The position numbers and the translations under genes were made by a program. A model generated the notes under the pieces. The model was not told the origin of the DNA. It did no database searches and saw only the letters and a program-made list of their open reading frames with translations. Shown here piece by piece: positions 12,375 to 16,235 of a stretch of DNA of 64,000 nucleotides. The stretch's first letter is position 1. Every line of letters starts with the position of its first letter. The DNA comes from Thermomicrobiales bacterium (GTDB lineage: Bacteria > Chloroflexota > Chloroflexia > Thermomicrobiales > UBA6265), in assembly GCA_019637585.1 (NCBI GenBank), contig JAHBVL010000008.1, positions 1 to 64,000 on the forward strand, written 5' to 3'.

Positions 12375-14054
12375 ATGACATTTGGGACAGGTCCCCTTGT
12401 CGATCCAGCCTCTCTTTCTGGACCTGAATTGCGCTACGACGCCGTTGTCATCGGCGCAGGCGTCGCCGGGCTCTCTTTCGCGCTCCGGCTCCCCGCCGAC
12501 TTCCGCGTCGCCCTGCTGACCAAGGGCAACCTGGGAGAAAGCAACACCCGCTATGCCCAGGGAGGTATATCGGCGGCGGTCGGTCCGGACGACTCTCCCC
12601 ACTTGCATGAAGAAGACACCCTCGCCGCCGGTGCGGGACTCTGCGACCCTGCCGCCGTCCATGAGCTCGTCGAAGGAGCCCCGGAAGCGGTCGACTGGCT
12701 CATCTCGATCGGTGCGCAGTTCGATACCGACCCGGATGGCTCGATCGCGCTCGGCATGGAAGCCGCACACAGCCGGCATCGCGTCCTGCACGCCGGCGGC
12801 GACGCGACCGGATTCGAGGTCGAGCGGACAATGGTGGAAGCCGTCCATCAGCGCCCCAACATCGATATCTATGCCAATACCTTTGCCATCGACCTGATCG
12901 TCGACGAGGGCACCTGCCGGGGATTGATTGGCGTCCTGCCGGACGACGCTCACTCGCTCGTTCGTTTCACTGCTCCGGTCGTGGTTCTCGCCGCCGGGGG
13001 TGCTGGCCAGCTCTGGTCGGTGACCTCCAACCCGCCGGGAGCCACGGCAGACGGACTGGCCATGGCCTTGCGGGCCGGGGTGGCAGTCGCCGACCTCGAA
13101 TTCGTCCAGTTTCACCCTACCGTCATGGCCGTGCCCGGCTGGGAGTCATTCCTGGTCACCGAAGCCGTGCGGGGAGAAGGCGCCTATCTGCGCGATGAAG
13201 CGGGTAATCGCTTCATGACCGCCCTCCATCCCCTCGCCGAACTCGCTCCTCGCGATGTCGTCGCCCGCGGCATTCAGTCGACGATGGCATCGACCCCATC
13301 TGGGCAGGTCTTTCTCGACCTTCGTCATCTCGATCGCGACGCCATGCTCGCTCGCTTTCCCACCATCGCCCAGGAGCTGAAGCGGCGGGGGTTGAGCCTG
13401 ACCGACGATCTCATTCCGGTGGCGCCCGCCGCTCACTATTTCATCGGCGGCGTGGTTGCCGCTGCGAATGGCGTCACCAGCATGCCCGGTCTGCTGGCCC
13501 TGGGCGAAGCAGCCTGTTCCGGCGTCCATGGCGCGAATCGTCTGGCCAGCAACTCCCTCCTGGAGGGACTCGTGTTCGGCCGTGATGCCGCGGCATACGT
13601 CGCCGAAATGCAGACGCCCGCCGGCATTCCCTCCGCATCGCCGAAGGAGTCCGCCGGTCCTCCGGCAGAGGCTTCCGCTGAGGTGAGAGGCATTGTCGAA
13701 GCCGTGCAGTCGATCATGAGTCAGCATGTAGCTGTCGTTCGTGATGCCGGCGGCCTCCGAAAGGCCGAAGCGGCTGTCCGCGAACTGGCCTCGAAGCTCG
13801 ACGACATCCCCACATCCGGCAAAGCGGTCTGGGAAGCCCGCAATCTGATTCAGGCGGCCCTTGCCGTTGCCGGCGCTGCGACCTTCAGGGAGGAAAGCCG
13901 CGGCGCTCACTTCCGCAGCGACTACCCGGAGACCCTGACCGAGCTCGACGGTCAACACTCACTTCTCGTCTCTGCCGAATCAGGCTGGCAATTTGGTTCG
14001 CTCAGCGATCCCCTCCCCGCGCCATCACCCGTCACCGCGGCCGCGACCCGCTAG
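12375..14054 (+). CDS. nadB: L-aspartate oxidase
   Basis: FAD enzyme oxidising L-aspartate to iminoaspartate, the first step of de novo NAD synthesis. The 559-residue protein has the N-terminal dinucleotide motif GAGVAGL (27-33), the substrate-side NTRYAQGGISA, the HSRHRVLHAGGDATG active-site region, FVQFHPT, and the C-terminal helical domain of the fumarate-reductase/AspOx family. An AspOx-type Glu lies in FVTEAVRGEG-like sequence (LVTEAVRGEG). GGAG lies about 10 nt before the ATG. nadC lies about 32 kb downstream, and nadA is not in the window. Confidence 0.95.
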   Translation: MTFGTGPLVDPASLSGPELRYDAVVIGAGVAGLSFALRLPADFRVALLTKGNLGESNTRYAQGGISAAVGPDDSPHLHEEDTLAAGAGLCDPAAVHELVEGAPEAVDWLISIGAQFDTDPDGSIALGMEAAHSRHRVLHAGGDATGFEVERTMVEAVHQRPNIDIYANTFAIDLIVDEGTCRGLIGVLPDDAHSLVRFTAPVVVLAAGGAGQLWSVTSNPPGATADGLAMALRAGVAVADLEFVQFHPTVMAVPGWESFLVTEAVRGEGAYLRDEAGNRFMTALHPLAELAPRDVVARGIQSTMASTPSGQVFLDLRHLDRDAMLARFPTIAQELKRRGLSLTDDLIPVAPAAHYFIGGVVAAANGVTSMPGLLALGEAACSGVHGANRLASNSLLEGLVFGRDAAAYVAEMQTPAGIPSASPKESAGPPAEASAEVRGIVEAVQSIMSQHVAVVRDAGGLRKAEAAVRELASKLDDIPTSGKAVWEARNLIQAALAVAGAATFREESRGAHFRSDYPETLTELDGQHSLLVSAESGWQFGSLSDPLPAPSPVTAAATR

Positions 14055-14068
14055 CTCCGGATCGACCC

Positions 14069-15403
14069 ATAACGAATCGCTATCACGACATCACCGAAGA
14101 GATCGAGCGGCGCAGCGCGCTGAGCGCCGGGTTCGTTGCCGACCCGTTTCAGAATCACACGACACTCGCCCGGAATCTCGACCGTACCCGGTCGCTCCTC
14201 GCCGACCTCGGCAACCCGGGCGCTTCGCTTCGGATCGTGCACGTCGCCGGCAGCAAGGGAAAAGCCACAACCTCCGCCCACATCGCCAACATCCTGACCG
14301 CCGCCGGCTTTCGAACCGGGCTGTTCACCTCACCCCACCTGCACAGCTGGCGAGAGCGAATCTCCATCGACGGCGCGATGATCGCGCAGAGCGAATTCGG
14401 GCTGGCTGGCGACCGGGTTCTTTCGGCAATCCAGGATTTCGAACGTTCGGACCGGGGCATCGGTTCGATCAACGCGTCGGAGATGCTCCTGGCCATGGCG
14501 CTGACCCACTTCTCCCAGTCGCGGTGCCACTTTGCCGTGGTCGAGGTGGGGCTCGGCGGACGGTACGACGCGACCAATGTCGCCGACCCAGACGTGACCG
14601 TGATCACCGAGCTCGAACTCGAGCACGCGGCCATTCTGGGCCCCGCGCTGGCCGACATCGCCTGGAACAAGGGGGGCATCATCAAATCGCACATTCCCGT
14701 TGCCGCATTACGGCCTCCTGCGGAAGCGGAACGGGTCTTGCGGGAGATCGCCTCGGAGATGGAGGCGCCCATGCTCATGGAGGAGCGGGAGTGGGTCTGG
14801 AAAACCACAGACAACGGCGTTGTTGTCGAGATGCCGCACCGCACGATCGATGACATTGTTCCTTCGGCGCCTGGTCGGCACCAGCGACAGAACGCTGCCT
14901 TGGCGGCGGTCGCCGTTTCACAGCTCGAGGGTGCGAATCTGCCGCCATCGGACGACGCCATTCGGACCGGGATTCGGCGCACCCGGTTGCTGGGTCATTT
15001 CGAGATCGCCGAGACCGACCGGGGCAACTTCGTGCTCGACGTCGCTCATACGCCGCAATCGATCGATCTGTTGATCCAGGCGTTGCAGGAAGTGGGTATC
15101 GCACGGCCCCGCGTGGTCGCGGGACTTCTGAACGACAAGGAGATCGATGACATCGTCGGGAAACTTGCCGCTGTCGCGTCGTCGGTCACCCTGACGCCGG
15201 TGCGGAGCCCTCGCAGCGCCAGTCTGGAGCAGATCGTTCGCGCCGCGGCGCCATGGCCGTCGGTCGTGCGCGCGGTTTCCCAGATGTCGTCTGCGCTTTT
15301 CCCAGCAGATTCACAGACAGATGAACCAGACTGGACAGTAGTAACCGGTTCCTCTGCGCTGGTCGCCGAATCGCGGGAACGACTCGGCCTGGCCGAACGT
15401 TGA
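14069..15403 (+). CDS. folC: Folylpolyglutamate/dihydrofolate synthase with an unusual start
   Basis: Adds glutamate to (dihydro)folate in an ATP-dependent Mur-ligase-type reaction. The P-loop HVAGSKGKATTS and LFTSPHLHSWRERI, VEVGLGGRYDATNV and FVLDVAHTPQS mark FolC. The first ATG/GTG/TTG in frame is the GTG at 14237, directly before the P-loop, so it would delete the normal N-terminus. Upstream codons in the same frame encode a good FolC N-terminus (RYHDITEEIERRSALSAG, then LARNLDRTRSLLADLG). I therefore place the start at ATA 14069, 14 bp after nadB; this choice is tentative. Without it the protein would be 388 residues. Confidence 0.85.
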   Translation: MTNRYHDITEEIERRSALSAGFVADPFQNHTTLARNLDRTRSLLADLGNPGASLRIVHVAGSKGKATTSAHIANILTAAGFRTGLFTSPHLHSWRERISIDGAMIAQSEFGLAGDRVLSAIQDFERSDRGIGSINASEMLLAMALTHFSQSRCHFAVVEVGLGGRYDATNVADPDVTVITELELEHAAILGPALADIAWNKGGIIKSHIPVAALRPPAEAERVLREIASEMEAPMLMEEREWVWKTTDNGVVVEMPHRTIDDIVPSAPGRHQRQNAALAAVAVSQLEGANLPPSDDAIRTGIRRTRLLGHFEIAETDRGNFVLDVAHTPQSIDLLIQALQEVGIARPRVVAGLLNDKEIDDIVGKLAAVASSVTLTPVRSPRSASLEQIVRAAAPWPSVVRAVSQMSSALFPADSQTDEPDWTVVTGSSALVAESRERLGLAER

Positions 15404-15463: not shown

Positions 15464-15634
15464 ATGGAGGGTAGTGCGGCAGATCGACCCTTCATCTGGG
15501 AAGGACATCCCAAAGTGGACATCGTGACGTATAGCAAGGTGAAACCCGCCGGCAGGAGGGGCGACCGCGCCGTCCTCCGCCGGGAGTGCAGCCAGATCGA
15601 AAGCTCGTGGTGCGAGGATGACCAAGCACCCTGA
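15464..15634 (+). CDS. Candidate 56-residue ORF overlapping the sigma-factor start
   Basis: It starts ATG-GAG-GGT, encodes a basic peptide with two cysteines, and ends 17 bp inside the sigma gene. The sigma ATG (15618) has GAGG directly abutting it, too close for normal initiation, so coupling to translation of this frame is conceivable. I see no homology. It may be only leader sequence. Confidence 0.25.
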   Translation: MEGSAADRPFIWEGHPKVDIVTYSKVKPAGRRGDRAVLRRECSQIESSWCEDDQAP

Positions 15635-16235
15635 AGCCCAGCTGGCGAGTGACGCGGAACTGATCGGACAGGCGGCCCTCGGGGATCCGGCGGCGCTGGA
15701 AGTCCTGTACGATCGATACTCGCGTGTGGTTTTTTCGTTTGCCCTGCGGATCGTCGGCGATCCGCAGATCGCTGAGGAAATTCTGCAGGAGGTCTTCTTC
15801 CGAGTCTGGCAGCAAGGGTCGTCTTTTCAGTCGAGCCGAGGCTCGCTGGTGACATGGCTGCTCAGCATCACGCACAATCTCTCGATCGACGAGATTCGTA
15901 AACGAAACCGCCGGCCACAGCGATCCGATTCAGCGGAACCGGAACAACTCCTGGCCTCGGTGAGCGACGAATCGGTCAATATCGAAGATGAAGTGTGGCT
16001 TGGCAGTCTCAGGCAATCGATCAACGACGCACTCGCCCAATTGCCTGACGCCCAGCGTGAACCCATCGAACTGGCGTACTTCCGAGGTTTGACGCAGCGG
16101 GAGATTGCCGATCAGCTGGGAGAGCCACTGGGCACCATCAAAACCCGGATGCGACTCGGAATGCTGAAGCTGCGGGAGTTTCTCGGTCAGGAAGCGAGCG
16201 ACATCATCGAACCCGCAGGGGCCGATGTCGCCTGA
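15618..16235 (+). CDS. ECF-family RNA polymerase sigma factor
   Basis: Group 4 sigma factor of 205 residues. Region 2 (ALEVLYDRYSRVVFSFALRI, then AEEILQEVFFRVWQQ) binds the -10, and region 4 (LPDAQREPIELAYFRG, then EIADQLGEPLGTIKTRMR) is the helix-turn-helix for the -35. The order and the serine-rich linker match the SigK/RpoE-like group paired with zinc anti-sigma factors. The anti-sigma gene follows after 37 bp. Its N-terminal TKHPEAQLASD is a short extension. The target promoters are not identifiable here. Confidence 0.93.
   Translation: MTKHPEAQLASDAELIGQAALGDPAALEVLYDRYSRVVFSFALRIVGDPQIAEEILQEVFFRVWQQGSSFQSSRGSLVTWLLSITHNLSIDEIRKRNRRPQRSDSAEPEQLLASVSDESVNIEDEVWLGSLRQSINDALAQLPDAQREPIELAYFRGLTQREIADQLGEPLGTIKTRMRLGMLKLREFLGQEASDIIEPAGADVA

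Follow-up and report, generated by a model that had tools for sequence, protein, structure and literature searches.

A folC gene lacking a standard start codon in a Thermomicrobiales bacterium, with AUA as its probable start

The weak AUU start codon of infC in Escherichia coli serves feedback through IF3. It has been cited as auto-regulation in a report on Staphylococcus aureus, where infC, ccpN and citZ have natural AUA starts (PMC13009471). These AUA starts were mapped by ribosome profiling and lie behind extended SD sequences, and in poor medium the ccpN and citZ sites yield about 10% as much reporter as AUG does, with ccpN reaching 30% in rich medium (PMC13009471). Among 61,358 annotated genes, AUG was replaced by CUG in 2 cases and by AUU in 1 (PMC5622118), and this rarity of near-cognate switches is to be read with the caveat that annotation itself hides them. 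An AUA start in bacteria is thus of a known kind, already described and rare, and the folC gene presented here would be a further case. Nothing relevant was found in the literature on folC start codons.

The window, which is the whole stretch of 64,000 nt analyzed here, carries on its forward strand nadB for L-aspartate oxidase (12375-14054; TIGR00551, 538 bits, over the cut-off) and folC directly downstream of it. The nadB reading ends with TAG at 14052-14054, and the folC frame, which is another frame than that of nadB, is open from 13745 to 15403. When the sequence was read in the folC frame from 13745 down to the first standard start, GTG 14237-14239, not a single ATG, GTG or TTG was met. 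The preliminary description had claimed just this lack of a standard start before the GTG, and the claim is confirmed with its coordinates. Even in all frames, these three codons are absent from the nadB stop to the first conserved residue, Tyr 14081, which rules out a start in another frame followed by an indel. With the codon usage of this genome, 56 coding codons without ATG, GTG or TTG have a chance of about 4%, so the start-free run of sense codons is unremarkable by itself. What is not a matter of chance is the conserved N-terminus lying 5′ of the first standard start. Further downstream, a sigma-factor-like gene (15618-16235) lies 3′ of folC, and many family relatives likewise have it in the neighborhood of folC.

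The folC product, taken to begin at the presumed AUA (14069-15403, 444 aa), matches TIGR01499 over the whole length with 324 bits (cut-off of 162.65). A structure model was built with 13 relatives (mean pLDDT of 89.3), and its predicted fold is of the Mur-ligase type as in FolC. The best PDB matches of the model, 2vor, 2vos, 1o5z and 1w7k, are FolC structures with TM of 0.78-0.85, and the predicted protein has the same fold and family as the solved 2vor, 1o5z and 1w7k. As judged from sequence and model, the window gene is a genuine FolC family gene for a predicted enzyme. It differs from the family in lacking a standard start and in its P-loop (HVAGSKGKATT at 14240-14272, as aligned with orthologues), which reads GSKGKATT where orthologues have GKGS.

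The 56 codons 5′ of GTG 14237 are real FolC sequence. The mean coding log-odds of the codons in 14069-14236 is 0.274, compared with a gene median of 0.276 in this genome, while the other two frames are negative over the same stretch, and the coding score in the folC frame no longer rises 5′ of about 14087. In an alignment, the pattern Y..AL..I..RS.Y.RGF...PF...GL.RT..LL before the P-loop is common to relatives of the same family and order. The model places two helices (residues 2-19 and 30-46) and a strand (residues 55-60) before the P-loop, with GTG 14237 as residue 57 in the middle of this first strand, beta-1. A protein started at the GTG would therefore miss both helices and half of this core strand. 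Because the GTG would cut strand beta-1 and none of the orthologues starts there, it was rejected as the start. The convincing FolC N-terminus that had been proposed 5′ of this codon is thus borne out by gene-like codon bias, orthologue alignment and a confident model.

Orthologues were taken from the order, and only the 43 with a complete 5′ end were counted. A standard start (ATG, GTG or TTG) lies 45-72 codons before the P-loop His in 41 of them, the two exceptions being the window gene (ATA, -57) and that of genome G029 (CTG, -55). None of the 43 begins at the P-loop, an outcome that the preliminary description had named as one that would speak against its reading. In G029, the folC frame (L030:1498) opens right after TAG, and CTG at -55 is the only sensible start. 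This CTG is homologous to the ATG of sister genomes (LNY versus MNY) and is preceded by AGGAAA.

The gene order with nadB directly 5′ of folC is also found in G001, G002 and G015. The nadB stop and the folC start overlap as ATGA in G001 (L003:771-774), and in G002, as read by hand, the nadB stop TAA is followed by a 12-nt gap and the folC ATG. The junction sequences are CCATGACC in G001, CCATGACT in G002 and CCATAACG in the window. ATA 14069-14071, which is 57 codons 5′ of the P-loop His, falls on the start ATG of G001 and G002, whose CCATGAC corresponds to CCATAAC in the window. A near-cognate codon is then found at the start position of relatives, and conserved coding sequence is found 5′ of the first standard start. 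In a scan of genome contigs, which may omit the window's own genome, the closest relative has an identity of about 39%, and the best matches that carry names point to Chloroflexota as the probable phylum.

We consider it rather likely that folC starts at AUA 14069-14071, a codon changed from AUG and used with reduced efficiency. Non-AUG initiation was among the readings proposed earlier, and the comparison supports it, as ATA 14069 appears to be the homologue of the ATG in relatives. From the three junction sequences, we infer that ATAA of the window arose by a G-to-A change. Such a change would have kept a stop in the nadB frame, TAA 14070-14072, which overlaps the ATA much as stop and start overlap in ATGA of G001, and would have weakened the folC start. 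The initiator fMet-tRNA would probably pair with AUA despite the third-base mismatch, FolC would be produced at a reduced rate, a fraction of that with AUG, and the predicted N-terminal peptide is (M)TNRYHDITEEIER. AUA is a rare codon in this genome, making up 97 of 68,918 codons (0.14%).

The site itself is modest. An SD-like GGA lies at 14059-14061, 7 nt 5′ of the ATA, with a pairing energy of -3.3 kcal/mol, whereas genes have a median of -5.8 and random sites one of -1.9; a strong or extended SD, which is not strictly required of genes with non-standard starts, is absent. The AUA falls within an unpaired stretch of an otherwise ordinary RNA fold, and no special mRNA structure was found at the nadB-folC junction (z = 0.49). 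Given the weak SD and a nadB end only 14 nt 5′ of the in-frame ATA, reinitiation by nadB ribosomes is likely, and ribosomes that have just finished nadB would be the probable source of most folC initiations. The coupling of nadB and folC is plausible from the geometry, which comprises the shared gene order, the ATGA overlap in G001 and the 12-nt gap in G002.

Compared with infC, ccpN and citZ of S. aureus, folC would likewise have a natural bacterial AUA start with an expected low yield, although it is a different gene in a different phylum. The S. aureus starts were profiled and have extended SDs, whereas the folC start is deduced from sequence, with a weak SD and a coding gene ending 14 nt 5′ of it. 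This difference in SD speaks against AUA, as does the next codon, ACG 14072, which is also one base off AUG and would give nearly the same protein. With infC of E. coli, folC would share a near-cognate start by which an otherwise ordinary protein is made in smaller amounts; feedback through IF3 is a feature of E. coli infC, to which folC is likened by its start codon alone.

The AUA codon comes from one assembly, the one genome of its genus covered here, and the gene could be an ordinary one starting with ATG at 14069 if base 14071 were miscalled in the consensus or came from a minority strain. A lone G at 14071 would recreate the ATG start seen in G001 and G002, with the same bases around it, and the rarity of near-cognate switches among annotated genes (PMC5622118) also favors an error. 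However, the own-genome background covers 324 kb with 243 coding ORFs, and apart from folC no credible gene in it is clearly coding ahead of its first standard start; this speaks against frequent frame errors. Near-cognate starts also recur at homologous sites elsewhere, one of them looking conserved across five species. We regard an error as unlikely, while granting it an appreciable chance as the main rival of the AUA start. In the same background, a genome-wide habit of odd starts was rejected, because the other strong candidates either lacked Pfam matches and looked antisense-like or of low complexity, or had the Pfam domain far inside the ORF.

Other near-cognate codons lie nearby in the folC frame, such as ACG 14072 and CTG 14120, and initiation at one of them instead of AUA is improbable. 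CTG is the likely start of folC in G029 and in G136 described below, and the SD-like pairing upstream of CTG 14120 is similar to that of the ATA. However, a start at CTG 14120 would delete most of the first helix, and ACG 14072 does not align with the ATG of G001 and G002, while the ATA does.

We give an equally small chance to incipient decay of this folC copy after loss of its start, with its function covered by a second FolC. The same genome does have a second FolC (G000:C28:232986-234218, or L154:12986-14218; TIGR01499, 289 bits), which shares about 36% identity with the one in the window. The window copy itself is long-branched and differs at four otherwise conserved positions, with GKGS to GKAT in the P-loop and Arg to His at residue 310 among the changes. 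These features may reflect reduced constraint on the window FolC, and a lower need for it would fit the presence of the second one, yet both FolC types are kept in most genomes of the order. Also against decay, the frame runs through 444 codons with no stop or frameshift and with normal codon bias throughout, and other intact orthologues carry equally many changes at conserved sites.

The least probable reading, with hardly any chance left to it, is that FolC is made as a NadB extension by a -1 frameshift near the nadB end and needs no start codon. The final 300 nt of nadB hold no stop in the folC frame, and a -1 shift leads into that frame. The fusion was nevertheless rejected because the nadB frame of the overlap has no slippery X XXY YYZ heptamer and the folC-frame coding signal stops at the presumed start; in addition, the junction RNA structure is ordinary, and G001 and G002 have a plain ATG despite the same gene order.

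Going back to near-cognate initiation, a survey of the phylum was made on high-completeness genomes with a mechanical criterion, the absence of ATG, GTG and TTG inside a set distance, each case resting on its assembly. No standard start was found in 2 of 99 FolC genes (G136 and G086, the latter a less clear case) and in 2 of 60 NadB-type genes (G115 and G152). For the downstream sigma factor, a separate count gave 0 of 19 genes. With FolC and NadB-type genes both at two cases, a habit specific to folC was ruled out; near-cognate starts are recurrent and not special to folC. In G136 folC (L282), CTG is homologous to TTG or GTG of relatives, and G104 folC (L294) has CTG at the homologous site in addition to a standard GTG further 5′.

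Among the nadB genes, that of G115 (L208) reads GAGGAGCCAAT-ATT-AAA. Here, the codons TAA CGA GGA GCC AAT precede the ATT, which comes after a GAGGAG run, and AAA AAG TAC follow it. In one genus, all five species with a match (G078, G110, G126, G141 and G152; loci L353, L229, L352, L230 and L354, respectively) have an apparent AUA, AUC or AUU start of nadB, where an SD-like run (GAGGG, GGGAG) is followed by the near-cognate codon and then TYDYIVIGSGIAG. In G110 and G141, a TTG just 5′ of the SD-like run is an arguable start. Judged by these sequences, the near-cognate nadB start is possibly conserved in this genus.

A Cytophagaceae MAG, which belongs to another phylum, has a folC (L122; PAUP01000010.1) that opens with TAG-GTT-ATT-ACA-TAT; a standard start is lacking up to the conserved helix, and ATT is the likely start. 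A Planctomycetaceae locus (L117) was dismissed as a further case because an ATG was found further 5′.

Gene finders limited to ATG, GTG and TTG would place the window FolC start at the P-loop and lose the N-terminal helices and half of the core strand. If the AUA start is real, folC joins the short list of bacterial genes with such a start. Comparison by a conserved N-terminus combined with an absent standard start also exposed the other near-cognate starts of folC and nadB. Near-cognate starts (AUA, AUC, AUU and CUG) might even be a recurrent, selected means of holding down FolC- and NadB-like enzymes in Chloroflexota and beyond, a class that would be under-counted since annotation by standard starts shortens or misplaces its genes; we hold this broad idea to be doubtful. 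If it is true, its best case would be the nadB genus, with AUA, AUC or AUU in five species. The wider pattern, above all in this genus, is a more interesting lead than folC itself.
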